Positions 2,895 to 25,398 of a stretch of DNA of 25,398 bases are shown piece by piece. Origin of the DNA: Saccoglossus kowalevskii (lineage: Eukaryota; Hemichordata; Enteropneusta; Harrimaniidae); contig NW_003110041.1 of assembly GCF_000003605.2 (NCBI RefSeq), positions 1 to 25,398 on the forward strand, read 5' to 3'. The notes beneath the pieces are model-generated. The model made no database searches and was not told the origin of the DNA. It saw nothing but the letters and a program-made list of their open reading frames with translations. Each line of letters opens with the position of its first letter. The stretch's first letter is position 1. Both the position numbers and the translations under genes were made by a program.

Positions 2895-3630
2895 TGTCGT
2901 GTTGTTGTATCAATCTCGTTCGATCCCCACACAAACTGAGCGAACTATCAGGGGATAAATCTCTTCTCTCTGGGGGGTTCTCCACACTGTCAGGGGAAAA
3001 ACTCGTCTCGTCTCTCTATCTCGTCCCCTTGAGGTACGGGATCGGGAAAGTCACTTATACTTTACAGTCAAATAAGACACACACAACGAAATACGTTTCA
3101 GCTCTCGTCTTAGTCGGTCAATCGAGCACTCTATAAGACACAGCGCCCTGGGGAAAAAATCCCCAAGACTCTCGCAAGGCTGACCCAAGACTAGCCCAAG
3201 ACTGGACTGCCTCAAGGCTCGCCCCTGGACTCTCTCGGACTGCGTCTGTCGTGGAGTATTCGCCAAGACCAACTCAAACTCTCTTTATTCATTTTCAAAA
3301 CTCTAACCAATTACAATGCAGTAAAAAGACTCTAGGGCGTAACCTTCAATCATAAAGCCAATCACACTAAGTACTGAATACGTCATATCTTTTGATTAAT
3401 CGTTCACTACATTAATAACTACGGATGTCAGAATAGCGACGGTATCTTGTAATTAGTTCCAAACCACTGAGCCAAGTTCCGTCCAAAACTTCAAATAGAC
3501 CTACACGATGACAGACATAACACAGCAATTCGCTAATAATCAGTTAATTAAGTCAGTCAACAGATACGCAAAAACAAATTCATGACAGAACACTAGCACA
3601 AGACAAACGGCCCTATTCAGAACCACCACA
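2895..3630 (-). mobile_element. Solo-LTR-like block (tentative)
   Basis: This 736-base stretch begins TG and ends CA. About 400 bases of it (2895-3300) are much richer in GC than the surroundings. Read on the minus strand it starts TGTGGTGGTTCTGAA. It has ATTGG boxes and an AATAAA in the middle (3284-3289 on +), a pyrimidine/purine-biased, CTCGTC-rich second half with three CCAAGACT repeats (on +), and ends in ACAACACGACA. That layout suits a U3-R-U5 LTR in minus orientation. No primer-binding site follows and no matching 4-6 bp target duplication was found, so a solo LTR is only a suggestion. It could be another repeat type. Confidence 0.35.
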
Positions 3631-3969
3631 TCCTTCAGAGAGTGACTACCATTACATTATTGTTTCAATGTTGTTTTAATATTTAATATCAGCTGCCTGG
3701 ACGCTATCTTCATTACATCATAGCGGAATCGCCGTATAAAATCTTGCCCATTTATAACAACTATTTTTGATTGGCTGTTGTGAAGCTGAGACGGCATAAC
3801 TTCACGATTGACATTTAAAGCTCATTGCCACCAAAATGCTCATTACTATGCAATGTCGGCTGAGTCTGATAGTTACTCCACTGAGTCAGGTGATTTAAAC
3901 GATGATATTAATTTTAATTAATTATGTTCTAATCTACGATCATAAAACTATTCACTCCCCAAATTTATG
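3631..3969. other. Interior of nested element, no gene recognised
   Basis: AT-rich sequence leading to the right terminal inverted repeat. A 22-codon acidic, serine-rich reading frame begins with an ATG at 3853, but it has no recognisable partner. Confidence 0.5.
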
Positions 3970-4014
3970 GTTTTCGACCGACAGCCCCCCCCCCCCAACT
4001 ACGGGCCTGAAACT

Positions 4015-5255
4015 ATAAAGAACAAAATTACATCTATTTTAAATGACATGAACACAACAATATTTAAAGTAATGGGATTTGGTTCCCATGGAGCGGCAGT
4101 TATGAAAGGGAGGCGGACGGGCGTTAGTACTCGTTTGAAGCAGCTCAACCTGCTGATGACATCTGTGCACTGCGCCGCTCATCGCATCGCTCTTGCTTAG
4201 TCGGGTGCTGCAAAGAAAATCGAATCGATCTCTCACTATCGGCAAATGGTTAATACAATATTCAACCATTTTAAATAGTCGTTATGAGAGATTACGGGAG
4301 CTGGATCGTATTTTGGACGAGAATGAGTTCACAAGTTTGAAAGACTTCAGCTCACTTCGCTGGCTATCACTGAGTAAAGCCGTTGAGGGAATTGAACATA
4401 ATTGGTCTTCTCTTGTGACACAGTTTGGCGAAGACGGTCGTAACAACCTCACTGCTGATGGTTTATTAAAACAGATTTCGAAATACAGTTTTATGGCTAA
4501 TACGTACATGCTACTTGATGTAATGCCCATTATGGACAGACTCAATAAAATATTTCAACGGATGTAAATATCGGAATTATCAAGCCATCTGTCAAGACAG
4601 CTCTTGATTTATTGGGTAATTTACTGGACGACCCGGGTGACAAGGAAGCCAACTTTGAAAGCCAAATCACAAATAGTGTGTATTATAAAGGACATAAAAT
4701 GACTTTTGCAGGCAGAGCAAATATACAAAGCTACAAAACTGTGAGACGGGAATTTATTCAAACTTGGAAGATAGATTTCCGTCTATCAATCAACGCTTTG
4801 GACGTACTTCTCAACCCGACAGGTTTTTCTGATGATTACGGGGAACTCAGTGATCACGGAAATAATGCCTTGGAACGGATTATTAATGTTTTGACAACAG
4901 ATGTTGACGGAGTGCCACAAATAATTGAACCAGACGTTCTGAGAGGCGAATTTCTGGCTTATAAACATGCAATGAAAAATCACGGTGGACTTGTCGTGTT
5001 TTATTAACAGAATATAAAGACATGTTCCCGCAATTTACCACTCTAAGTATAGCGCTTATCATACCAGTGTCAACCGTGCAGTGTGGGCGTGGGTTCAGCA
5101 CACAGAATCGTATTTCTACTGCTAGAAGAAGCAGACTTACTTCTGACCATAGCGATAATTTGATGATTCTGTCCATGGAAGGACGTGACATTGAACAATT
5201 TAATTATGCAAGAGCTATTGAAATATTTAAAAGCAATGACAGGCGTAAAGTTTAA
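4015..5255 (+). pseudogene. hAT-family transposase (ZNF862-like), frameshifted remainder
   Basis: hAT transposases cut and paste their element through an RNase H-fold core and a C-terminal dimerisation domain. Read across four frame segments, the order is as follows. GFGSHGAAVM (from 4075) and HCAAHRIALA are the catalytic-region and Cys-x-x-His motifs. A stop sits at 4198. SLRWLSLSKAVEGIEHNW follows a frameshift near 4275. IIKPSVKTALDLL follows a +/-1 shift near 4561. The last part, from 5007 in a third frame, is the hAT dimerisation domain with IPVSTVQCGRGFSTQNRIS and a terminal RSRLTSDHSDNLM. The usual C-E-R-x-FS core reads C-G-R-G-FS here. At least two stops and three frameshifts make it non-functional. 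The family is clear; the sub-branch is my recollection of ZNF862-like proteins. Confidence 0.85.
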
Positions 5256-5347
5256 TTGGTATGTTGAAAAATGAGCGCAAACAATTTGTTACATGTGATC
5301 AGGTCACGTGGGGAAACCATTAATTAAAACGCACGCAGTGTTTACCG

Positions 5348-5407
5348 GGACGCATTTTTTTGTTACATGCGTCCAGGGACGTGTTTTATGGAAACCTAAC
5401 GCGACCT
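5348..5407 (-). repeat. Right terminal and subterminal repeats of the hAT element
   Basis: Holds GGACGCA (5348-5354), TGCGTCC (5368-5374) and a partial GGACG (5377-5381), ending in TAACGCGACCT, the exact complement of the left terminus. Confidence 0.75.
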
Positions 5408-5755
5408 GAGTACTATTCCTGCATACAAGTTATACGTCAGACCACATCTAGAATATAGTATCCGGGCTTGGAACCCTTGTCAAGCTCACTTCACTTACTA
5501 CATGTCGTTTACGTGGTGACTTAATCTAAATCTACAAGATCATGCAGGGTGCAGACGGACCTGAACATCAAAAGTCCTTCAATGTTGCCAGGGATTTAAC
5601 AACGCGGGTCACCATTTGAAATTACTGAAGCCCCATTGCACTTTTTCACAATTACATCACAATTACAGTTTCTTCTTACGAAATATTAATGTGTGGAATA
5701 GTTTATCAAGCCATGCGTTATGGCAACATCTATGAACATGTTTAAACATAGACCG
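5408..5755 (+). pseudogene. LINE ORF2 C-terminal end, right of the hAT insertion
   Basis: From 5424 the frame reads YKLYVRPHLEYSIRAWNP, the hallmark stretch after the reverse-transcriptase palm in CR1/L2-like LINEs. Near 5673-5720 another frame gives FLRNINVWNSLS, matching the usual C-terminal F-x-x-R-x-x-N-x-WN-x-L motif. The middle is frameshifted. Together with 493-579 this is one LINE copy that the hAT element entered. Seven residues separate the RS dipeptide on the left from the YK on the right after removal of the hAT, which is the spacing I remember for the family. Confidence 0.7.
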
Positions 5756-5867
5756 TATGGTTGCATGCTAAACCTGTAATTTCTGTGAGCAGTACAAGCT
5801 TTTTGGCTTTTTGTCTACGGCAATTTAGTATGGTATTTACGAAACAACTGGCTGATACAATTTTTTT

Positions 5868-7548
5868 CCAAATTGTGGCGAAGCACAGTATGATGAAGAT
5901 GGTAAACCTAAAAAGATGTATTATAATCTCCCACTGATTCCTAGACAACATCAAATGTATTGTGTGCCACACATATCAGCTCTGCTGCAGAACCATACTA
6001 CCGAAGATAATAATTTGTATAGTGACGTTTGGAATACCAATTCTTAGAAGAATCTCTATGCTGAAAGCGGGCTATTCAAGGCAAGTCATATTATATTATA
6101 TTAATAGTAGGTTAACGTGCCATTTTTAATATGGAGCATGGTATTTCTACAAAATGTTAATCATTTAAACAATAGTTGATTGACGGAATGTTTAAATTTG
6201 CACAATTACATGCATGCTTACACATGCATGTAGACAAGGGGAGATAGTTGTATATATATTGTTCTGGTGGTGCGATACAATATAGCGATCTTACAATTAA
6301 TTTTACCTTCTCTTTCAATATAGGATGAGAAAAGATGTCTGTCCTTGGGCTTTTCTTCAGATGCCAGCATTTGAACTTGCCATACTCTATATGACCACAG
6401 GCACTGAAATTTAAAATTTACCTCCAACAGTGCGTGAACATATGGAAATGTTGATGTTGGTCGGAGTAATACCTGGTATGTAAATCATGCATGTATGAGC
6501 TATCTGAAATTACTTTTAACACAAAATATTCCCATTTTGAACATTAACACATTAATTGCTATGTGGATTTTTTACCATACATTATTGACGGCTTTTGGTT
6601 TAATCTACTAATTATGTATGCACATTATTATATTTATCCTAGTATGTTACAGGTGAAGTCAATGAATTTGGGGCAGTAATAGGAAACTTGAAAATCAAAC
6701 TGCTAATTTGTTTGGCCACTTACATTGGACGCTACCTCATGGATGTATCTTGTATATTTCAGGTCCAAGCACACCATCAGACATGAATGGTTTCCACGAA
6801 TTGTTGGCACATCAAAAGTGTGTTGAAATGTGGGATGCATACAGAAGAGAGTCTGTTGTGTTGAAAGCAGATATAATCATGAATACAATGGATTGGCCTA
6901 CTAGATGCAAATGTTTCAATTTTAAATCTGCCAACTTCAAGTAATGCGTGTCCTTACTGCAGAATTAGAGGTGATTTCAATTTTATTTTTTAAACATAAT
7001 TAATATAATATAATTTTTTACAACATAATTAGGGGGTCTGATTAAAATCAGATCCATGTTTTTGACTTATTTTATTTAAAATAAGATCCTAATCAGATTT
7101 GGGGGGGGGGCTTCAATTGAGAAACTGTTAAATAGCATTTTATAAGAAAATGTGTGTAAATACTTATTTTCAGTATATGCATTTTATCTTTGAAGGTAAA
7201 CATTTGAAAGCATTGGACAAGACTGTGCTCATTGGAAGTCACAACTTCTTGCCATCTGATCATCCACTGAAAGAAGGTATGGAATTACCATCTTTTAAAG
7301 TGAATCATGTTGTAGATTCAAGTAGCAGAACAACTAATCTGGAAAATATCAAATATGGTAAAGCCCTAAATGAGATAAAGACGAAAATTAAAGATATTGA
7401 AACAGTCTTGAGTCAAGTACATACATTCTTCAATGATAAATATTCTGTGAATTATTGTATAAATATATTTGTAATCATAAACCATACAGGAAAGAAGTGG
7501 CAGATGTCTTTAAGCTATTGCAAAATAAACTGCAAAATGTTCACTAAA
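5868..7548 (+). pseudogene. Transposase_21 (tnp2-type) transposase, N-terminal exons
   Basis: Tnp2-type proteins are transposases of CACTA-like elements. Four exon-like blocks can be read. Block 1 (5868-6093) has CGEAQYDEDGKPKK and LPLIPR, one stop at about 6045. Block 2 (6324-6475) has NLPPTVREHMEML and LVGVIPG, one stop at 6412. Block 3 (6763-6970) has GPSTPSDMNGF, WDAYRRES and, after a frameshift, CPYCRIRG. Block 4 (7196-7440) has VLIGSHNFLPSDHPLK. The family order is a Cys/GKP region, PLIPRL, NLP, IPGP, then L-x-A-lle/Leu and FLP-x-H-P. Introns 6476-6762 and 6971-7195 have GT-AG ends, and both split a Gly codon as G|GT. The catalytic middle beyond block 4 is not recognisable. Family call by motif order; the exon edges of block 1 are approximate. 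Confidence 0.75.
7031..7110. repeat. Palindromic, G-run-bounded segment in an intron
   Basis: Contains the palindrome TCTGATTAAAATCAGA (7037-7052), a second imperfect palindrome around TTATTTTATTTAAAATAA, then ATCCTAATCAGATTT and a run of ten Gs (7101-7110). TCTGATTA is inverted between the two ends. It may be a short MITE inside the intron at 6971-7195. Confidence 0.4.
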
Positions 7549-8853: not shown

Positions 8854-9520
8854 TTCTCGGAAGGGAAAGAAGGCTAATAATTCTGGGAGTAGAAAAAGGA
8901 GCAGGCAGTTAGCTGTCCCATTCTTGTTAACCTCAGATGAAAAGAAGCTTGCAGATCTTCGGGTTAACAGTATTAAAATGCCGCTCAACTTCTCTGTTTG
9001 AGCACTCGCATGGAATGAAAAGTGTTGAGTGGATTAAGGTATTCATATTCATTCTTTCTTCACCTACAACTGCTTTGTGTGAATAATGGTGGAATTTTTC
9101 AATCATCCATACAAACATATGCTCATTTGAAAACAATACACTAATTAAAATGCCGCTTAACTTCTCTGTTTGAGCACTCGCATGGAATGAAAAGTGTTGA
9201 GTGGATTAAGGTATTCATATTCATTCTTTCTTCACCTACAACTGCTTTGTGTGAATAATGGTGGAATTTTTCAATCATCCATACAAACATATGCTCATTT
9301 GAAAACAATATACTAATGTTCACTCTTTCATGATGTAGGTCTTCACTGATGGAGTTGTTCTGTACAGTTTGAGGGGCATGCTCTGGTCAACTTCTGCACA
9401 GCAATTTCACGCCTAAATATGCCTGTGCTTGAAAAGCCTCAAATTGAAGAATTGAAAAACAATTTATAACTGCGCTGACTTAACTGGAAAAACATTCACC
9501 AGTTTTATTTTTCAAAGTTT
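8854..9520 (+). pseudogene. tnp2-type transposon gene, C-terminal exons (DUF4218-like)
   Basis: An exon opens after an acceptor at 8852-8853 and reads SRKGKKANNSGSRKR, LTSDEKKLADLRVNSIKMP and, after a shift, GMKSVEWIK up to a donor at 9039 (repeated at 9211). The next exon starts at 9339 after TGATGTAG and reads VFTDGVVLYSLRGMLW, then ISRLNMPVLEKPQIEELK, with frameshifts. In animal proteins carrying Transposase_21 the tail has the same order: a basic stretch, ADxRVNxIxMP, MKSxxW, LRGML and a DUF4218-like LExxFP region. So 5868-9520 looks like one gene spread over 3.7 kb. The join to the N-terminal half is inferred from order and orientation. Confidence 0.65.
8972..9316. repeat. 172-bp tandem duplication, two copies
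   Basis: Copy 1 is 8972-9143 and copy 2 is 9144-9316. They are nearly identical; I see a C/T difference in GCTCAACT/GCTTAACT and a C/T difference near the end. Each unit carries the last 67 or so bases of the exon, its GT donor and about 100 bases of intron, so the exon end and 5' splice site are doubled. The near identity makes this much younger than the decay of the gene around it. Confidence 0.9.
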
Positions 9521-11384: not shown

Positions 11385-11660
11385 AATCATGGACGACACT
11401 CTTCGGGACCAGAGGCTGGAGATAGCGGACCTGAAGAGGACCCTGGCATCGTGTCCTAAAGGTAAAGCTGCACCTTTGCCAGGGCCTCTTTAAGAGGGGC
11501 TCTCGGAGCATGAGAGGATAGAAGTCACACCGTGCTGGTTTTGTGGTAAGCTTGGCCATGGAAAAAGGAACTGCGACAAGATGAAGAAGCTTTCTACAAT
11601 GACTGAGGAAGAGGAGAAGGAAGTTGGTGGACTGATTCACTGTGGCTGGCCAAGTGTAGG
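11371..11660 (+). pseudogene. gag nucleocapsid region with CCHC zinc knuckle
   Basis: In frame 1 from 11371 the reading passes one stop at about 11490 and reaches CWFCGKLGHGKRNC (11533-11574), an exact C-x2-C-x4-H-x4-C zinc knuckle. It is preceded by a charged helical stretch (DDTLRDQRLEIADLKRTL) and followed by a KMKKLSTMTEEEEKE tail. Zinc knuckles of this kind bind RNA in the nucleocapsid part of LTR retrotransposon Gag. The frame differs by one shift from the upstream gag frame (which ends at 11384) and again from the protease frame. Confidence 0.8.
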
Positions 11661-11663
11661 TGT

Positions 11664-11930
11664 ATGTTCGTTCCTATGACAATTACTGGTTCACGGGGAC
11701 TCTTCTTGGTGGATACTAGGGCCACTGATGTTGCCATCTCTACTACTATGTGGAATGGTATGGTGCCACATTTTAGGCCACCGCTGAAATCCATCCCATC
11801 TGGTTGTGATGTCTGGGATGCTAATTCTACTCTGATAAAAGTTAATGGCTCTGGTTACTTTACAGTGACCCTTTCCACATTAGCTATTGTAGCGATTGTC
11901 ACTACTGTGCGAATTCAACTGCGTTATTAA
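11664..11930 (+). pseudogene. Retropepsin-like aspartic protease, DTG motif damaged
   Basis: The frame reads VPMTITGSRGLFLVDTRATD, with the Asp codon at 11712, followed by VAISTTMW and, further on, a hydrophobic LIKVNGSGYFTVTL strand region. Ty3/gypsy proteases have LLDTGAxxxLIS at this place. Here the Gly codon is AGG (Arg), a single-base change from GGG that should abolish activity. It lies straight after the zinc knuckle, as in gag-pol. The frame stops at 11930 and no reverse transcriptase, RNase H or clear integrase follows, so most of pol is gone. Confidence 0.75.
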
Positions 11931-12258
11931 CTTCGGCACCAATGTCTTGCGCCTAGGGAGGACGCTGAAGTGGTTGGAGCAGTCTCTGCGTTGGAGGAGT
12001 GTTTTTTATAATCTTTTTTTATATGTATCTCTCAATCGTATGTTTCGGGAGGATGTGTGCCTCCGGCTGTGTGTTTCCTTCTGCCTTAGAACGCCTTGTA
12101 CACGCCCTCTGGAAATTAACGAACTTCGTGGTTTGTCTCTGTTTTTTGGCTGCTCGAATACCTCTGGGGCCAATGTAAAGACCAGGCGAATCTCGATTAT
12201 TTAGAATTTAAATAGGATCAGACAGTTGGACTGATCAATTCTATAATTGTAGTGCTAT
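11931..12258. other. Possible 3' end of the gypsy-like element, no clear gene
   Basis: A purine tract GGAGGAG (11993-11999) precedes TGTTTTTTATAATC at 12000, which could be a polypurine tract and the start of a 3' LTR. No matching 5' LTR was found upstream of 10087, so this is a guess. ATCAATTCTATA is shared between 10045-10056 and 12234-12245, possibly by chance. Confidence 0.2.
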
Positions 12259-13505
12259 ATGTCTGCCACTTATACACTACCTGTAAATACTGTACTAAGG
12301 GTATACAAATTCGCGCAAAATATCGAGAGAAATGTCAGGAAATTAAATGGTTATCATCTCGAGAAGATTAATGGTGCCAGAAATGTTCAGCTAGGAAAAG
12401 AGCCTGCAGTCAACAACATCCATCTCGGGGAGGAAATCGGCATGCTGAAAAAACAGGTCCAGGATCTTACGATCAAGAAGGAAATTCTTGAAGAGCAGTA
12501 GTCACTAACAGTTTCATGAGAATGCAAATAAATTAACAGCTGCCACTCATTGTTGTGTGTATTTTTTATTGGAGCATCATGTTTCTGTTATGCATCAATA
12601 ACTGGCCCACGTGCACATTCGAAGCTAGTTGGAAGAGATGTCAATCATCTACCATCCACTTCAATATTCAATAACTGGAATATTGAGAGGGGTATCTTGG
12701 GCCAAGCACATCCTTAATGATATTGATCATGTATGCAAGTCAACATCCAACAATACTTCTAAACAAATCCTTGCCCATATTCAAAATAGCTTATTTACGA
12801 GATGCTGTTCAATGTGGAAGATTTCATGCAAGGGAAGTTAATTTATGAAGATGTTGTCTATGACCACTTGATTTCTCCATCTGTGTATTATGATCATACC
12901 AGTGTCATTTTGCAAATCTTGTTTCCTGCCCTCACCAAACTACTTGAGCATGAATTCTAAGATGATCTACCTGCAGCCTGAACGAATGTTTGCTTATCTG
13001 GATGATCTCCTTTCATTCAAGCTGAATATTTCTACACTTGCCTCTCAATCATATGTCGTATTTACCATCAACCAGACAGGAAAGTGGTTGCCAACAAAGA
13101 TGAAAGTCTCNNNNNNNNNNNNNNNNNNNNNNNNNNNNNNNNNNNNNNNNNNNNNNNNNNNNNNNNNNNNNNNNNNNNNNNNNNNNNNNNNNNNNNNNNN
13201 NNNNNNNNNNNNNNNNNNNNNNNNNNNATGAAAGTCTCCAGTCTCCAAATTGATTGTGAAGATGCTACCAAAAAGTAAGTGGGCAGTGGAAGTTATTCCA
13301 TATAAGAACAGAAAATATTATAGATTAGAAAGGCAAACCAAGAAGCTGCTTTTCAAAAACGGGCCAGACAGCGTGCAAAAGCGTGCTCAATCTGCCTGAA
13401 AGTCGCCCAGATGATGGAACAGTTCTCTTGCTCGGAAAGACTGTGAAACACTTGTTCATAGAAGATGGTTTAAAGAAATGGTATAATAGTGAAGTGATAT
13501 CACAG
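12259..13505 (+). pseudogene. Copy A of an unrecognised multi-domain family, exon 1 (internally deleted)
   Basis: It is not a family I can name. Pieces of it line up in order with copy B (16300-19055). A coiled coil comes first (EEIGMLKKQVQDLTIKKE, ending 12501). CVYFLLEHHV (12554-12583) matches CVYTLLKHHV. LPSTSIFNNWNIERGILGQ (12649 on) matches the NMNIQRLWLAQ region. HILNDIDHVC to ILAHIQ (from 12707) matches ILQDIKTRSS to ILGHIS. DFMQGK and VYYDHTSVILQILFPAL (12808-12957, stop at 12958) match DFMEGT and YDPDTRAIFETSLPAL. RMFAYLDDLLSFKLNISTLAS (12983 on) matches RILAYMDQLLGFKPNVSILAS. A basic region lies beyond the assembly gap, and GKTVKHLFIEDGLKKWY runs to the donor at 13506. The Asp- and Cys-x-x-His-bearing centre seen in copy B is missing. 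Stops and shifts show decay. Confidence 0.75.
13111..13227. other. Assembly gap (117 N)
   Basis: ATGAAAGTCTC ends at 13110 immediately before the Ns and the same 11 bases begin at 13228 immediately after. The gap may therefore be an unmerged overlap rather than missing sequence. It falls inside copy A. Confidence 0.95.
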
Positions 13506-13999
13506 GTATTCCAGGCGAATAGATCAGCCACCACAAATTTCTCTCTGTAAACAATTTGCTGGACCTAGGACCTTGTTCAAAATAACCATAGAGTACACAT
13601 TGTTTACCTGGAGGTAAATTGACATAGCACTTTATTCTGTGATTCTCACAAATAATACAGTACCAAGTTTTTCTCTATAAAGGAGCTATAACATATATTC
13701 AGTGTTCTCCAGAAATTGCAATACTATAACTACACCATCATTTGGTTTTTAGCTTGTATACATAGAGAAATACCCCATTTATGTTTTCAAAGCTGGTGTA
13801 TAGATATAAGAACCCACCATCATATATAGAGAAGCCTTGAGTTGTGTAATTGGAATCCACTCATTGCATATATCATATATTGTTATTTTATAAGGTAATA
13901 AGGCTGGCCTAAGTGTTATCATTGATGACCCAGCCACAGATATTAACCACTTTATTAATTTATTAATGGAGTTTGCACTGCCACGGCAACGGAATGTAG

Positions 14000-14805
14000 C
14001 ATGGTTATGAAAAAGCAAAAATATGATTTGTTGTGGCTCTTTCGTCAGAAGGGAAAATTAAATATTCTGCGAGAGTATAAAAATTTGAGAAATCGCTATG
14101 AGAAAAAACAGTTTTTGGACTTCGAAAGATTCAGTTTGTAAAGGAGTCTTGCAGATCCCAATTATTTTTGGTCAACACTAAATTCATCATATACCCCTTT
14201 ATATTCCAATATACATTCTGACCAGTGGTTTATTTGACTGTAGTGGCACTGCTTACGATTTCCACTTAGCTGCGGAGTTAGAAAACTATGTTGACCAAGG
14301 TGGATGATATTTTGCCAGATGTTTATTTTGAGCTTGAATTGATTAATTGCCCAATTAGCTCGGGGGAAATTAGGATAGGTATAGCCAGTATTGAAGGGGG
14401 CAAGTCGGGGGACCAGATGGCCTGCTTGATGATTTTTTTAAGATAACAAGTGATTTTATTATCCCCTATCTCCATGTACTTTTTAATAAAATGTGGGGAA
14501 AAAGTGTCTTCCTTGAGCAGTGGCGGGAGCTATCATTATCCCTTTGTATAAGCACGGGTCTCAAAAAATTAGAGAGAATTATAGGGGTATTTTCCCTGCT
14601 CAGCATTTTTAGTAAAATTTTCACAGGAATTTTGATACCAGGAGGAAAATGTTCAAAATGTTATTTAATATTCATAGTAATGTCAAAGCATGTGTGAAAT
14701 CTATAAATGGTTTCACAGAATTCTTTGACTGTCCTATGTGTGCATGCTGAGCCCTTTCCTTTTTTCTTTTTTTATAAATGAGTTGGCTTCTCATTTACAG
14801 ACATT
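14000..14805 (+). pseudogene. LINE reverse-transcriptase fragment inside copy A's intron
   Basis: It lies in the intron 13506-15338. Frames in series give ILREYKNLRNRYEKKQF and DPNYFWSTLNSS (the linker before the reverse transcriptase), then DDILPDVYFELE and, after shifts, SGGPDG, IIPYLHVLFNKMW and RGIFSLLSIFSKIF (fingers). An abrupt jump leads to VKACVKSINGFTEFFDCPM and FINELASHL. The palm segment with the first catalytic Asp is missing between about 14635 and 14645, an internal deletion. The clade is not resolved; the wording is typical of CR1-group LINEs. Confidence 0.75.
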
Positions 14806-15338
14806 TTTAACCAGATAATTGTACATATCATTCATATCTTTCAATGTTGTGATTATTATGGTTATAATAAATGATGTATTCTGCTAATTTATATAATCAT
14901 ATTATTTTTTTTCAAATCACGAACGAGTCCAAATTGTTCACAATATATTCAAGTTGCATTTACACTTTCCAAATATGTCATACAGCAGTGGCTACAAATT
15001 ATTTTGTTTGAGGTACAACAATATTATATATTTAAGGTCCATGTACTGCTCTTACTTTTCAATACTACTCATTGTGATAGCATTGTTTTGTCATTTCCCT
15101 TTCAAAAAACATGCCTATAAAGTAACTTATGGTGGATCAAACCTTCTAAGTCAGTTGTAACTTAAAATAAAACACTCTGCAGTTAATTTATCATTACATA
15201 TCTTCAATTTGTTCTGCATATGTCAGAATATGGCACCTCATTGTTTGACAAAATGTAATAGCATTAACATTTGTGAATATTGAATTAATTCATGCTAGCA
15301 ATGTTGATAAGGATACTAACTAAAATCCTCCATTTCAG

Positions 15339-15455
15339 GTACCAGGGTATTCGCAGTGGTACAATATTACCTATGATGAATGTCACTGAAGAAGGTTTAC
15401 TTCTTGTTTATACTTAGAAGATTATGAAAAAGAAGATCTTCAAATTATTATTTAA
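15339..15455 (+). pseudogene. Copy A, last exon
   Basis: After the acceptor CATTTCAG (ends 15338) the sequence reads VPGYSQWYNITYDE, then after a disruption YLEDYEKEDLQIII and a stop at 15453. It joins in phase 0 to EVISQ at the end of exon 1 (donor GT at 13506), giving an intron of 1833 bases. The joined tail, GK-x-V-x-H-x-F ... WY-x-x-x-V-I ... PGY-x-x-WYN-x-x-YD ... EDY-x-x-xDL, looks like a small SH3/Tudor-like beta barrel, which is inference from pattern only. Confidence 0.7.
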
Positions 15456-16299
15456 TTACCAGGCCATGTTTTTTTCTTTACACAAGCAAAAACGAGAACT
15501 ACCATTAATAAGAAACATCCCACATACACACAAAGTATGTAATCGTTTGGACAGCAATCGCAGTGTTAACATTTCATCAGTATTTGATTATTTGTCGTAA
15601 TGTATACCAAAATATTAAATATGCCCAAATCAACAGTAATCTGTGAAATGTTGCACAGAGCCTTGGGCATTCAAATGGTTAAAGGGAAATATGTATTTCA
15701 ATATTGATATGGCAATTACCATGGTGAAAAAATGAATAAACACCTGCCCATACAACATGATACTACTCTGTCAATCACTGAAAATGTAAAAAAAAAATGC
15801 AAATCATGTGCCTTTTATAGCTGATATAAGAGTAATAACAATAAAAGAAGGATAAGTCAAAAGGTATAGTATGGATCAATTTGTCACCATTTTGGTGATT
15901 GGAATAACTGCTAATGTGATAGTGCTAGTAGCCATTTCAACAACTTATGAATTACAGTCGATTTCATTGAAATTTTGATTAAGTTTTCAACTTAATTCAA
16001 CACTTAGATCTAATCATTTGCTGGATATCTTGGATTTATATACTCAAAACCCCACATTGTGGTGTTTTGTTTGAATTGCTCAAACACCAAACCAATTATA
16101 ACGGCACTGCAGAGATTCCACTTCTAATAATTTCCTGTGCCTAAAATCAAAAAGAAAGGTTATTGACCTTGCAATAATCATTGCAATTAAGATCACCTCA
16201 TTTGCATAACAAAGGGTAACTATTTTGAGGAGATTCCGGTTTGCAACAATCAGCACTGATTTTGAAATGGAGTAGAGACGTTTTTGGAAGTCACTGACT
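15456..16299. other. Spacer between copies A and B, no gene recognised
   Basis: AT-rich sequence with no convincing coding frame. The N-terminus of copy B may begin upstream of 16300, but I cannot see a start. Confidence 0.5.
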
Positions 16300-18440
16300 A
16301 CTGAAGTCACGCAACTGAAATCAGAGCTTGGCAAAGAGCTAGAAGATTTGAAAACCGTCAAAGAAGAGTTGTCAGTGGCAAAGGTCACTGTGAGATTCAA
16401 AGAATCCGAAGAACTAAAGTTGAAAAAAAAATTAAATTGGCAGAAAGTGGCCAAAAAAAGAACGACACAAAGATAAGATTATTGGAGTGGTAAGTTTGTA
16501 AAATTGACGGAGGAGAGTGTCCCCAAGCTCTAAAAGACGAACATAAAAAAGTTAAAACAACAGATTGTTGAAATGTACCATCAACTTGACAACTTGCATG
16601 AAAGCTAACTCAGCTGAAAGATGAAGTTGTGAAAAGGGAGGGAAGAAATATATCCCGGAACTACAAATGTGTGTTTATACTCTGCTGAAACACCACGTCA
16701 ATAGTAAACATGTTGGTGAAGTTATCACAAGCTGCCTGAAACTGGTGCATAAAAAGTACCATCTGCATCAACAGTGTCGAATATGAATATTCAGCGTTTG
16801 TGGTTGGCCCAGCATCAGCTTGGAGAAGAATATTCCACCATGGAAGAAACTATCCTCCATACTGATGAGACCTCCAAGTATGGAGATAAATATGGGGCTT
16901 ATGCTGGACGTGACAAAGATGAGGTTTACTACTGTTTAGGTCTACAGGAATTACCCACCAATTCCGCACAAGACACATTGGACACATTCCAAACCATACT
17001 GCAGGATATCAAGACCAGATCCAGTGTGTCAGACTGTGATGTTGGGAAGAAGATCTTGGGCCATATTTCCAGTACTATGTCAGACAAGGCTGCTACTGAA
17101 CGCAAGTTCAACAGACTACTAGAAATCCATCGTCTGCAGATTCTTCCTGAGGTCAAGCCCAATTACCATCAATTGACAGAAGAAGATCGCAGTTCAGTAG
17201 ACCATTTGATGAACTTCTTCTGTGGGCTGCACAGTCAGGTACACATGGCAGAAACAACCAGGAGTGTGTTCACTTCTTTAGAGAAAGACCATTTTGAAAG
17301 TAGTATCCCCATATTTAGTTCAGATTATCGTCAGAGAGATGAGCCAGGCACACTTGCATTGGTTAGGGTAGGGTGTAAAGCTTTTGCTAGGGGGGGTGAT
17401 GAAAAGTCAGGGTGCCACAGAGCTTTTAAAACCTTTGTTGGGGATTTTGTAAAGAGGTAACAGATTTGATCTTTTTTTTGCTAATGCTGGTCATTTGTAT
17501 TTTTTAGATGATCAAATGAAATATTTTCTTTTAAGTTATGTTGCTGGATGTCGGACTCTAGGCTTAGTTTCCAAATTTATTTCAACACCTCTGTGGAAAT
17601 TATTAGGATAAAGGAATACACATCATGGATATGGCAGCGTATTATCTCAAATTAGTGACATATTTACATGATGCTTCAATCAATTTGGATGATTTCATGG
17701 AGGGCACCAAGTGCAGTATATGACCCAGATACAAGAGCCATATTTGAGACATCATTGCCAGCTCTTGCTATATTGGTGAAGAAAGACTTCAAGGACCAAC
17801 TTCCTGGAGGTTTGTTGGAGGCTGGGCAGTGGACAGACGTAATGAGACAATGCGCGCAAAGTGTGGAAAAACAACAAATATGTTGAGCGTATTTTAGCTT
17901 ATATGGATCAGCTATTGGGCTTTAAGCCAAATGTGAGTATTTTGGCGTCGGAGGCATAAACCATGTTCTGCCTGAACAGGACAGAGCAATGACTGTATGC
18001 CCAAGATGATGCCACAGATAAAAGATTGGTAGGTGCTGCCCGCAAGAGAGTTAAATCCATTAAAGAAGAATTTAAGGCCAGAAAAAATGGTTATCGAAGA
18101 AAGAAAACAGCAGAGTTTGAGAGAGCACCAAAAATTAAAAAAAATAGCTGATCTCGAAAAACAAACACATGAAATGATTCACTATGGACTTTGGCAGTCA
18201 AAAATGCAAGTAGACACAATGCCAAGTACATTAAAAACCACCAAAGAAAAAATAGATGCTTTAAAAGCTCAGTTAAGATTCGGGAAATGTATTAAAACAA
18301 GATCTAGGAAATAGGGATTTATTTGTTTTCAATGAGGAGGGGGCTCGCAGAGTTACATTGACGTGGGAAGAGTTATCTAAGGGTTACATACAAAGGATTA
18401 GTTGTATCACATGTAGCAGCTTTGGCAAGATTTGGCACAA
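16300..18440 (+). pseudogene. Copy B of an unrecognised multi-domain family, exon 1 (near full length)
   Basis: I do not recognise the family. In order: a charged coiled coil (KSELGKELEDLKTVKEEL, 16300-16473). YIPELQMCVYTLLKHHV, then KHVGEVITSCLKLVHKK. A 228-codon frame (16774-17460, opening at a GTG, so not a true start) with ILHTDETSKYGDKYG (Asp at residue 31), ILGHISSTMSDKAATERKF (Asp 104) and MNFFCGLHSQVHMAET (Cys150-x-x-His153), ending GGDEKSGCHRAF. FANAGHLYFLDDQMKYFLLS and GCRTLGLVSKFISTPLW. YDPDTRAIFETSLPAL and FKDQLPGG. RILAYMDQLLGFKPN. A highly charged helical region with YGLWQSKMQVDT and IDALKAQLRFGK. Lastly LFVFNEEGARRVTLTWEEL. About six frameshifts or stops. The Asp/Asp/CxxH layout recalls RNase H-fold transposases, but that is inference. 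Confidence 0.7.
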
Positions 18441-18958
18441 CTCGTGTCATTAACAAACTTAATAGTAATTTGATATGTTGTGTGATAGGATGTAACGTAA
18501 TGGTAATTTTATTTAGTGGGTGATGGGATTGTGTATGGAAGGTTTAAGGGGTGTACGTAACTTAAAAAATGATAATAAAGTTACTACGGTAAACCATGTT
18601 TCCTTGTGAAAATTATATGTTTTGTGCATTCCACAAATATCATACCTAAGTCACCAACAGAAAATCTTTAACATAAAAGAAAATCATGTTTGGCATCAAC
18701 ATAATTTGAAAATGCACTAGTTATCATGTCCATCATATTAAAGTAAGTTTCGTTTATGTTGTTTAGCTGCTGTGCCATGCTGTGTTTTAAATTAATCCAG
18801 AAATAAATAATCATAACTGTGAACAATATTCTTGTGCTACCAATCCTTGTGGTCTATACAATGTTAATAAGTCAAGCCAACATAAAATATAGTAATAAAT
18901 TGATAAGTATAATTAATGTTCAATAAATAACTAAATACATTTTTAAACACTTTTCCAG
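18441..18958. other. Presumed intron of copy B
   Basis: AT-rich, no coding signal. The acceptor TTTTCCAG (ends 18958) is clear. The donor cannot be placed because the end of exon 1 is degraded. Confidence 0.45.
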
Positions 18959-19055
18959 GTCCCTGGCTTCCCGACTTTGTTTAATAAAAGCCATGTATTC
19001 CTATCACTTACAAGAAGATATGAGAAATGGTGATCTGGAGGTATTAGTAGAGTAA
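18959..19055 (+). pseudogene. Copy B, last exon
   Basis: It reads VPGFPTLFN from the first base after the acceptor, then after a frameshift YSYHLQEDMRNGDLEVLVE and a stop at 19053. This matches copy A's last exon in position, phase and wording (VPGYSQWYN; EDYEKEDLQ), confirming that the two copies share gene structure. Confidence 0.7.
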
Positions 19056-21357: not shown

Positions 21358-21576
21358 AAAACGATATAGAGAAGATGGATGATATCAAAATAGAATCCAA
21401 CGAATTAACTCTAAAATTAGAACAGGCAACATGTGATGAAGCAATAAATGCAGTTCAAAACGAGTTTGGGTAACAGCGTGCACTTCGAGCTCCCGACTAA
21501 CTGCTACGTAATGTGACAACCACAGTCTGTATCCGCTGAAAAATCAAATAAATAGTAAAATGAATGCGTATTGACG
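21358..21576 (+). repeat. LINE 2nd copy: 5' region, direct copy
   Basis: This segment, continuing to 21644, matches the reverse complement of about 23950-24275. It reads ESNELTLKLEQATCDEAINA, then a stop, then a 5' leader with a four-codon upstream frame (ATG at about 21560, stop just before the ORF1 ATG at 21577). Relative to the inverted copy it lacks 34 bases after 21470. Confidence 0.75.
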
Positions 21577-22365
21577 ATGCCTAAGAAAATTGGCCGCTTG
21601 CAAGAGAAGAAAGGAGAGCAACATTAGGAAAAAACGCCTTCGCCGTCCAGCCATGCTCGTAGTGGGTTTTCAACACCTGGGACACCGGACAATGAAAAAC
21701 TGAAGAGAAAAAGTTCCGCCGTTTTATGAAAGAAACTTTGACTAGAATAGTGAAAAACAAAACAAAATAACTGGAAACCTCTGAGTGGGAAAGGGATTGA
21801 ACATGTCACTGCCTTCATTAGAAACTCGTCATTTAAAGATCCAAAAAACATTGTCCTCCATATTGGCTCAAATGACATGGACTAAGGAACGCCGATAGCA
21901 ACATGCCGTACTAAATATGAAGAACTACTACACACAACTCATAAAATGTATTCAACCAGCAAGATTTTCCTGTCAAGTATTCTTCCAAGATTAGACAATG
22001 TTGAATTCAATACAATTCTACAATCAATCAGCGAACAGTCACCTAATGATAACTACCACTATATCCACCATAACTTTGTAGACGAAAGAAACAAAATCAA
22101 ATCGTTCATGTTTAAAGACAACAATAACAGTGCTGTTCGGGTGAACGTTAGCAGCATGAAGCGCTATATAGAGAGAGCAGTTGTACAAAATCAAATAAAT
22201 CACACTATCACCATTTCAGAGAAACAAATGAAAAGACCAAAAACTCAACACCGCGACAAGCTACAAGACGGACCACGTGTACCCAAAGACAGTAGACGAA
22301 ATACCTCAAAGAACAAACACACTGAGACTCTGCTTACCTGCATCATGAACATTATTGACAATTAA
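21577..22365 (+). pseudogene. LINE 2nd copy: ORF1 with SGNH/GDSL-esterase-like domain
   Basis: The frame starts MPKKIGR at 21577 and stays in register to the stop at 22363, about 262 codons, with six in-frame stops (first at 21625, last at 21883). It has a basic N-terminal part, then NIVLHIGSNDMD (21847-21882), the block III G-x-N-D motif of SGNH hydrolases, and IFLSSILPRLDN with HHNFVDE further on. ORF1 esterase domains of this kind are known in CR1-group LINEs. A charged tail (ISEKQMKRPKTQHRDK) follows. The catalytic Ser of block I and the C-terminal DxxH were not located. At 21625 the TAG is GAG in the inverted copy. Confidence 0.7.
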
Positions 22366-22466: not shown

Positions 22467-25398
22467 ATGACTTTTTCTTCGGCAAAGAAAACTTGTCTTA
22501 CATTTTCAACTTGGAATATTTATGGTAGTTTAGTTAAAACAAATTAATGACCCATGTTTTATAGCTAGAATTAGTACTTCAGATGTTTTCAGCCTAGTAG
22601 AAACTAAAACAGATAGACTCAAATTTAACAATCCTCAAATACTCATATTTCCACTCATTCAGGAGTAAAAAACATAAAAAGGCCCGCTCCAATTATGGAG
22701 GAATTGTCTTTTATTACAAACAAAATCTATTCAAATGGCATAAAACAATTACCAAGTAATAGTGAAGATTTTATCTGGGCTCGTTTAGACAAAGATTTCT
22801 TCAACCTTGGCGAAAACATTTTCCTTTGCTCACTTTACTTAAGTCCACAACACTCCAGCATCTTTGATTGGAAAGAATCAGACCTTTTTTCAACTGTTGG
22901 AAAAAGATATTAGTACATATTCAAAAGTTGGCTCAGTAGTTCTAACGGGGGACTTCAATGCTAGTACCAAATATGAAAAAGATGTGGCAATTTTTGACAA
23001 TATTCGTGTCTACAAATACAGACAATTCCATCAAAGAACGAGCTTCTCAAGACATCCACGTTAAGAACCAATATGGCAATAAACTTTTAGATCTATGTAT
23101 TGCCACAGACACTGTCATACTTAACGGAAGATGCATAGGGGATCTTACTAGGGGATTGTAGGTTATACAATAGTTATTTAAAATTTATTTAAAAATATTT
23201 CTTTATTCTATGTACATCTATTGAATTTAACCTTGTCATATCACTGCCAGATATCTTACCACATTCAAACAAATGCCTTGCTAAAAATCTCTTCCACTGC
23301 AACATGCACACAGGTGCCCCAAAACTTTAAAACAGCAAACATGCACAAATATTTGGAACGAGAAATCAAAATTTCTTTTTAATGAAGCACTACATTGCAA
23401 AGATATGTGTAACTTAATCAATAACTTTAATTTAACTGATTTTGATAACTCTCAACAGGCAGTCGATTAAGCCACAGATCTTCTCTCGAATATTTACCAT
23501 GCTGTAGCCCGTAAAAGTTTAACAAAACGTAAAGTAAAGACAAATAAGAAAAATAACCCTGAGTGGTACACTTGTGAATTGACTAAGCTCAAGAAAGAAG
23601 TTCATAAAATGTCAAATAAATTATCATTTAATCCGTACAACAAACAGCTCAGAACTGAATGCTATACTATGAAGCGAAAATATAAACAGCTTGTAAAAAA
23701 GAAGAGGCGAGAATACAAGAATGATATACTAACTAAACTAGACACAATGAGTAACTCGCGTCCTGTAGAATATTGGAATTTAATAAATAAACTAAAGAGA
23801 GGATAAGAAAATAAGTTATATTAATGCTGAAAAGTGGTATGAACATTTTAAGATACTCAATACAAATGAAACCCCATTTGATGACAACCTAAAAATAGAA
23901 ACTGACAGCCTAAAAACTACACCTATTACAATGTCTTTGGATCTTTAAATGATGAAGGCGAAGGCGTTTTTTCCTCATTTTGCTCTCCTTTCTTTTCTTG
24001 CTTGCGGCCAATTTTTTTAGGCATCGTCAATACGCATTCATTTTACTATTTAGTTGATTTTTCAGCGGATACAGACTGTGGTTGTTACATTACGTAGCAG
24101 TTAGTCGGGAGCTCGAAGTGCACGCTGTTACCCTTCCGCCATCTTGTAAACAATTTCTTTTTTATCCAACTCGTTTTGAACTGCATTTATTGCTTCATCA
24201 CATGTTGCCTGTTCTAATTTTAGAGTTAATTCGTTGGATTCTATTTCGATATCATCCATCTTCTCTATATCGTTTTTGGACCAAAATATCTCTCAATTAG
24301 AAATTCAAACTGCAATCAGTGCTTTAAAGAATAGAAAATCTCCCGGTGAAGATAGCATAACAAATGAAATGGTTAAAACTGGTAGAAATGTCCTGATAAA
24401 GCCTCTACAAAAACTGTTTAACCATATCCTCAACAGTGGTCACTTTCCTAGTGCCTGGAATATGGGTATTATCACGCCAATCTTTAAAAAGGGGGAGCGA
24501 GCTGACCCAGGAAATTATCGAGGAATTACTCTTCTAATGAGTCCGAGTGAACTCTTCACGTTACTAAACATATCAATGAAAACAACATTATAATTGAAGA
24601 ACAGATTGGCTTCATGCCAAAATTCAAAACAGCTGATCATATCTTTGTACTTAAACGGTTACTGAGTAAATATCTAAAAAGTAAAAAGCTAATCTTTGCA
24701 TGTTTCATTGACTTTTAAAAAGCTTTTGATTCAATCTGGCACCAAGGCTTACTTTACAAACTTCGTAAAAACAACATCTCTGGTAAATTCTACAATATCA
24801 TAGAATCAATCTATCAAAATTCTCTTGGTTGTGTCAAAACAAAAACTGGGCTTACACCCTCTTTCCCGGTAAACGGAGGGATTAGACAGGGAGATAACCT
24901 GAGCCCACTTTTATTCAATCTATATGTTAATGACATCAAATACCACATTGAATCATCACAAAATAACCAACCAACCAACTATCTTGTTTACTGTATGCAG
25001 ATGACCTATTACTACTTTCAGAATCAAAACATGGTCTCCAAAATGCCATTGATTCTGTAGGAATATATTGCAAACAATGGAGGCTGGATGTCAATGCATC
25101 AAAATCAAAAATACAAATGTTCAACAAATCTAGGAAAATGCTATCAAAAAACAAATTTAAAATAAATGAACAAGAATTCATATACCTATTTAGGACTACA
25201 AAATAAATTCTTCAGGTAAACTCAGCAAAGCACATAAAGATCTTGGACACAGCAACAAAAGCACTATTTAAAATGAAACAACTATTATACTCAAAGAATA
25301 ACATCCCAATAAAAACACACCTGAAACTATTTGACATCATAATCAAACCAGTCCTACTCTATTGCAGTGAAGTATGGGCTAGTGATTGCATACTACAA
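22467..25398 (+). pseudogene. LINE 2nd copy: ORF2, endonuclease and reverse transcriptase, cut by window edge
   Basis: ORF2 nicks the target and copies the RNA into it. From the ATG at 22467: CLTFSTWNIYGSL and VFSLVETKTDR (endonuclease N-terminus), EDFIWARLDK and FLCSLYLSPQ, GDFNAST (Asp at 22951), GNKLLDLC. A basic linker follows (23579-23806, PVEYWNLINKLKRG). After an insertion come QTAISALKNRKSPGEDSI, PIFKKGERADPGNYRGITLL, FIDF with a stop at 24716 then KAFDSIWHQGLLYKL, GGIRQGDNLSPLLFNLYVND, and YADD (24994-25005), with both catalytic Asps kept. The thumb LKLFDIIIKPVLLYCSEVWA reaches the window end. The SDH part of the endonuclease is missing around 23160. CR1-group by the esterase ORF1. 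Confidence 0.85.
23942..24280 (-). repeat. Inverted, internally deleted copy of the LINE 5' region inside ORF2
   Basis: The reverse complement of this 339-base segment matches 21358-21644 closely, then jumps to the TCATTTAAAGATCCAAA found at 21829-21845, skipping about 180 bases. It is flanked by GTCTTTGGA (23933-23941) and GTTTTTGGA (24272-24280), a likely 9-bp target duplication with one difference. Removing it brings ITMSLD on the left next to DQNISQLEIQTAIS on the right in one frame. It has the 34 bases and the GAG codon missing or mutated in the direct copy, so it was not made from that damaged copy. Confidence 0.85.

Follow-up and report, generated by a model that had tools for sequence, protein, structure and literature searches.

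Two decayed gene copies in Saccoglossus kowalevskii as probable remains of a DNA transposon family with a Spindlin-type tail

The question raised by the locus

Contig NW_003110041.1 of the hemichordate Saccoglossus kowalevskii carries two related stretches, copies A and B, that lie head to tail and share an intron near their 3' ends. The window analysed here is the whole of this contig (C477, 25,398 bases); related loci are cited below by L numbers and other contigs by C numbers. A sequence-only reading of the window had proposed that A and B belong to a gene or transposon family that matches no named one, and the question is what kind of element they come from. We consider it fairly probable that A and B, both dead and truncated at the 5' side, represent two subfamilies of an old family of DNA transposons in which a Spindlin-type reader is joined to a DDE-like transposase. 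The parts of the two copies are as follows.

12294..13505, + strand: copy A, remains of exon 1, with coiled coil, core pieces, LPGG-like region, charged helices and the first Spin/Ssty half (13404-13505)
13506..15338, + strand: copy A, intron, phase 0, with donor TCACAG/GT and acceptor TTTCAG
15339..15455, + strand: copy A, last exon, with the second Spin/Ssty half (VPGYSQWYNITYD... EDYEKEDLQII), frame broken mid-exon, family stop at 15453-15455
16285..18412, + strand: copy B, remains of exon 1, from the coiled coil through the start of the tail
18413..18958, + strand: copy B, intron, with donor degraded to TCACAT/GT and acceptor TTCCAG
18959..19055, + strand: copy B, last exon, with the second Spin/Ssty half, reading VPGFPTLFN and then, in another frame, AMYSYHLQEDMRNGDLEVLVE and a stop

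The tail is a Spin/Ssty repeat

The small beta-rich tail split by an intron, described earlier as SH3/Tudor-like, was present in both copies and could be named. It is Tudor-like and corresponds to the Spin/Ssty (Spindlin) repeat, PF02513. With the exons joined, the tails of copy A, L029 and L032 scored 26.4, 44.9 and 39.2 bits, respectively, against a gathering cut-off of 25, and L010, taken without the last exon, reached 16.8 bits only. The spliced tail of copy A matched Spindlin-1 with an E-value of 6.2e-6, and that of L029 with an E-value of 1.8e-22, the best match being to the second repeat. Each spliced tail of L029 and L032 held one Spin/Ssty stretch, and no further repeat was found in six frames of the relatives, so that the family lacks the three repeats of a Spindlin. 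The view that the sequence matches no family failed for the tail; the body had no match to a Pfam transposase or a PDB entry.

In animals, Spindlin recognises histone marks on active genes. The second repeat of Spindlin-1 holds H3K4me3 via F141, W151, Y170 and Y177, and the F141A mutation cuts binding about 40-fold (PMC7878818). The corresponding positions, placed by hand on the printed alignment with spacings of 10, 19 and 7, read F/W/Y/Y in L032, F/Y/Y/Y in L029 and F/W/Y in copy A, in which the fourth is lost. Judged by these residues, it is an even prospect that the tail would read methyl-lysine. No fusion of Spindlin or Spin/Ssty with a transposase was found in the open-licence PMC literature.

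Two colinear copies with broken frames

Copy A spans 12294-15455 and copy B 16285-19055, both on the + strand, and the two are homologous and colinear. Local alignments of their translations reached scores of 89, 57 and 57, against a maximum of 49 and a median of 38 for 100 shuffles in which nine frame pairs were compared, and A and B therefore align better than shuffled sequence. The remaining translated matches scored 43 or less and were individually within chance. The best relative, L010, has a 723-residue open frame on C1912 (L029 is the same locus with wider flanks). In tblastn searches, copy B (16649-18378) matched L010 residues 35-673 in eight pieces with 50-66% identity, and copy A (12536-13099) matched residues 36-541 in four pieces, with the order kept in both cases. 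These data bear out the earlier observation that the motifs of A and B follow one another in the same order.

The reading frames of both copies are broken, and the suggestion that they might encode a domesticated protein is not supported for A or B. The longest open stretch of copy B (16753-17460, 235 codons) includes LHTDE, TMSDKAAT and CGLH, with several frame breaks downstream of it. Both copies are also truncated at the 5' side. The DNA homology of copy A to L037 (C2268) starts at 12294, and the likeness between L037 and L047 extends further upstream; L034 (C850) has N-terminal matches upstream which copy B is without. A 221-residue N-terminal frame of L010, which lies in a different phase from the main frame and overlaps it, had no tblastn match in A or B. 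A gap of 117 N in exon 1 of copy A (13111-13227) is bounded on both sides by the same 11 bases, ATGAAAGTCTC, and is therefore probably a false assembly gap left by an unmerged overlap.

The tail intron, too, had been noted before. The last exon indeed opens with VPGY at 15339 in copy A and with VPGF at 18959 in copy B, each directly after an AG, and the donor of copy A at 13506 confirms the phase-0 intron. Of 19 sequences scanned for donors (the window and 18 loci), 7 have one at this place and in this phase, that of L033 reading CAA/GT, and eight family-type acceptors (VPG, or VPE in L037) lie in 7 of 20 scanned. The donor of copy B, compared with the family by eye, is degraded to CAT/GT near 18413. 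Since donor and acceptor are both kept in A, L029, L032, L033 and L037, the intron is old.

A pair by position

Copy A matched L037 over 12294-15466 with 74-93% DNA identity, and its second DNA relative lies at C2921:466695-468192 (74-79%). Copy B matched L034 over 16285-17367 with 86-88%. No direct blastn match between A and B was found at E-values up to 1e-8 in an all-against-all comparison of the window and 18 fetched regions. By their nearest relatives, A and B are members of two subfamilies that came to adjoin, and because they belong to different subfamilies the term tandem pair is true of their position only. If one gene had been duplicated in tandem recently, this would account for the head-to-tail order, the spacing of 0.8 kb and the shared intron; however, with copy A nearest to C2268 and C2921, copy B nearest to C850 and no blastn match between them, this explanation was rejected and retains a barely perceptible chance.

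Dispersal and conservation of the family

In the genome (572 Mb in 4,830 contigs), a search with the L010 protein gave at least 70 matches, spread over 21 contigs; 56 of these 70 are interrupted by internal stops. The search scored 62 of 91 candidates, so these counts are lower bounds, and copy A is absent from the matches listed. The genome-wide copy number, proposed earlier as a check, is accordingly that of a dispersed family. By eye, the sequences stacked on L010 share LHxDExxKYG, TMSDRAATxxKFN, NFFCGLHSLVHMAE, CKAFARGxDEKSGCH, RGNRFNILFxNA, AGCRALGLISKxxTxPLW, LPGG, SVxKHNK, LAxEAxxMFxxNKTxxWL, YGLWQT and LKAQLRFRKNVL.

Between subfamilies, the proportion of synonymous differences (pS) was saturated at 0.75-0.87 and that of nonsynonymous differences (pN) was 0.29-0.50. 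In the closest group, dN/dS was 0.59 for L029-L035 (15 stops) and 0.48 for L029-L044 (19 stops); pN and these ratios are biased downward, as tblastn alignment favours protein similarity. The pattern is in keeping with a protein lineage that stays active while it sheds dead copies. Long open frames occur in some relatives, with 723 residues on C1912, 758 on C1166, and 462 and 396 on C3792. The copies on C1166 may be a live or young branch. On this 17.9-kb contig, two copies of a divergent relative (L041 and L042), about 98% identical, adjoin a long tandem array of units of about 157 bp.

IMG/VR held no confirmed viral relative of the copy B open frame or of L010, PHROGs gave weak matches only (best E-value 0.044), and Rfam gave none. 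Two structural details of single relatives were also noted. The halves of L038 (C1169:455.8-458.1k) lie in opposite orientations, an internal inversion. Past the 3' end of the A type, a stretch resembling a hairpin, about 40 bp long, lies at 7472-7511 in L037 and, in opposite orientation, at 619-658 in L047, followed in both by CACCATCCTCC.

Signs of mobility

As a query, the 5'-most 600 bases of the L029 unit matched C2920, C3528, C379 and C2261 besides their own contig, C1912. On C2920, C3528 and C379 the match starts at query base 22-23 in each case, and that on C2261 is an inner piece only. Four loci (L029 on C1912, C2920, C3528 and C379) start with TAGCGATAAC[A/T]GACTGGC after unrelated flanks, and the copies that match the 5' end differ from L029 by 7-17%. 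C2920 and C3528 furthermore have the identical internal deletion with the L029 3129/6898 junction, by which 3130-6897, nearly the whole gene, is gone; neither appears among the L010 protein matches, and C2920 has about 860 extra bases near L029 7275. That one gene-less derivative occurs at two unrelated sites, its left end unchanged, implies movement in trans or spread of the derivative. A related subfamily has scattered copies that begin at one fixed 5' terminus, and its deletion derivative has multiplied; these findings uphold the transposon-like character proposed for the pair, and it is highly probable that A and B belong to a mobile family. The search for terminal repeats proposed earlier was answered in part, with a fixed 5' terminus in four loci and no inverted repeats in four units. 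The boundaries of the L033/L038 pair were tried as element ends and rejected, the right side falling within the intron of the gene.

The body resembles a transposase core

In the body, a first Asp is separated by 72 residues from a second, which is followed after 45 residues by CxxH and, beyond a long insert, by a Glu. Counted on L010 over 21 sequences with gaps excluded, these columns are kept as D110 in 12/16, D183 in 15/18, C229 in 17/18, H232 in 16/17 and E524 in 11/14. D110 is absent in L033, L034, L045 and L047, all of them decayed, and E524 is absent in L041, L047 and copy A. From the motif order we infer that D, D, CxxH and E are the catalytic residues and that the body would adopt an RNase H fold. 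DDE-type catalysis by the family protein appears reasonably likely on this basis. Of the earlier proposal of an RNase H-fold, transposase-like protein, the D/D/CxxH/E order stands; Pfam gave no DDE match, PDB gave no profile match, and the one predicted fold had no confidence. Sub-cut-off Pfam rows (GlutR_N, HTS, Ribosomal_L12, GBD_Y3, TTD, DUF1835, BBP1_C, CENP-Q, NADase_NGA and other non-Spindlin models) were set aside as chance, as was a weak PDB row (8glv, E-value 0.38).

Surroundings of the pair

Other degraded mobile elements, a hAT fragment and a reverse transcriptase, lie around the pair in the window. A hAT C-terminal dimerisation fragment (PF05699, E-value 1.6e-6) occupies 4965-5255, and the frames upstream of it from 3946 look hAT-like by eye, without a Pfam match. 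Reverse transcriptase remains (PF00078, E-value 1.1e-10), of the non-LTR (long terminal repeat) type by eye, were found at 24719-25060; the stretch beside them (24180-24593) had no Pfam match. An open frame at 11607-11930 with LVDTR is aspartic-protease-like by eye, as in a decayed LTR element, again without a Pfam match. The window further contains an inverted pair of about 320 bp with 86% identity (21358-21647 and 23954-24276) and a 172-bp unit that occurs twice in tandem with 98% identity (8972-9317). One more repeat adjoins the 5' side of copy A.

12167..12291, no strand assigned: other dispersed repeat, 91% identity to C3421 and 86% to C4479

Proposed mechanism and alternatives

A complete element would resemble the L029 unit, which measures about 6 kb and has a single long gene. 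The encoded protein would begin with an N-terminal region, followed by a coiled coil, a DDE/D core and an intron-split Spindlin-type Tudor repeat. The protein would multimerise via the coiled coil and bind the element ends, and the D-D-E core, judged by its motif order, would cut and rejoin DNA. It could act in trans on gene-less copies, as the multiplied deletion derivative supports. The Spindlin repeat may dock on H3 tails, most likely at H3K4me3 in view of the conserved cage residues, and such docking could favour integration or tethering at open promoter chromatin. Targeting of integration by the Spindlin-type tail is a tentative idea, to which we give somewhat less than an even chance. 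A bolder proposal goes further and would make the family a superfamily of its own, new among the DNA transposons of animals, which inserts at active promoters by means of a Spindlin-type H3K4me3 reader on its transposase, its tails and the Spindlins having a common origin and the reader domain having passed between host and transposon. We regard this as rather unlikely.

Several observations weigh against a DDE transposon with a methyl-lysine reader. The evidence for mobility comes from the L029 subfamily and is extended to the subfamilies of A and B by kinship. The right end varies, with homology running to L029 8420 in L029 and L035, 8274 in C3528, 7894 in C2920 and 8171 in L044 (the limits for C2920 and C3528 hold within the 3 kb fetched of each); this variation could be later damage, because the copies differ from L029 by 7-17%. 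None of the four units tested had terminal inverted repeats above shuffles, TAG...CTA at the very ends of L035 being the sole inverted match. In L035, ATCATTG immediately precedes TAGCG and recurs right behind ...ACATACCTA. This candidate target-site duplication of 7 bp was noticed post hoc and in only one of the two both-ended units (L029 and L035); the L029 unit, with both ends known, has no such duplication. In the body, other acidic columns are equally kept (e.g., D411, D435, D449 and D509, each 13/15), and the triad is therefore not singled out by conservation alone. No Pfam transposase or DDE model matched up to an E-value of 1 in six frames of four relatives, PDB sequence and profile searches gave no solved structure that covers the body, and an AF2 prediction for the 235-residue frame of copy B, run with no alignment, had a mean confidence (pLDDT) of 36 and a meaningless fold; the DDE assignment is for these reasons a deduction from motif order. 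In the tail, L029 has Y where Spindlin-1 has W151, and copy A has lost the fourth cage residue.

Part of this would suit an old host gene family, in which a domesticated transposase captured a Spindlin repeat, multiplied by small duplications and decayed, with A and B as pseudogenes. Such a history would explain the few copies (the protein matches, at least 70, group into about 26 loci), the long frames in some relatives, the two C1166 copies at about 98%, the failure to find inverted repeats, and the strong protein conservation between subfamilies, although tblastn lowers pN. However, one 5' terminus at four unrelated sites and one deletion junction at two are unexpected from random gene duplication, and we consider this history unlikely for the family as a whole. 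For C1166 and C3792, whose divergent relatives have long frames, a domesticated host family remains a candidate. The fixed left end, the variable right end and the absence of inverted repeats in the units tested would also agree with movement by another route, e.g., by rolling circle or a tyrosine recombinase, with D, D, CxxH and E being non-catalytic. Yet no Rep, helicase or recombinase domain exceeded the cut-off in six frames of the relatives, CxxH and the acidic residues are among the better-kept columns, and the right-end variation may have arisen later as said above, which makes this route quite improbable. An old DNA transposon family with a Spindlin-type tail is the reading we prefer.

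If this reading is true, the joining of a Spindlin repeat to a DDE-like element would represent a new way of aiming insertions, and it would give a name to proteins that have no Pfam domain over most of their length. It would also bear on the origin of the Spindlin genes, which form an amplified family on mammalian sex chromosomes. Unnamed invertebrate database proteins presumably have the same motifs and tail. The family may be catalogued in Repbase, Dfam or animal protein databases with its tail unremarked.

Comparison with known systems

The family shares with Spindlin a PF02513 tail that is nearest to repeat 2 of Spindlin-1, with aromatic cage positions in L032 and L029. To our knowledge, no Spindlin protein has a transposase-like body. 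Spindlin-1 has three Tudor repeats (PMC7878818; three stretches align, the third weakly), whereas the family here has one, which is C-terminal and split by a phase-0 intron.

In hAT and P transposases, a long insert lies ahead of the E, as in the family here. The order D, D, CxxH, E is a signature of hAT, P, MuDR and Kolobok (PMC9587614), and the family shares it as well. Unlike these superfamilies, it has no Pfam match to their transposase models and no inverted repeats were found; nor was a duplication of TTAA, as in Kolobok, seen.

Dada elements (PMC3706591) resemble the family in the D, D, C/DxxH, E order, in transposase introns, in the absence of terminal inverted repeats and in duplications of 6-7 bp, compared to the 7-bp candidate in L035. 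They differ in zinc fingers and in targeting small RNA genes (PMC3706591), neither of which was noticed in the family here, though no search was aimed at them. Compared by description rather than by sequence, Dada appears the most similar in habit.

Chromovirus integrases likewise combine the DNA-joining enzyme of a mobile element with a C-terminal histone reader; however, their reader is a chromodomain and not a Spindlin repeat, and both the mark and the class of element are different. Histone readers on integration enzymes are known mainly from retroelements, in the form of chromodomains. The family would then be of a known kind, a DNA transposon, whose reader domain is out of the ordinary.

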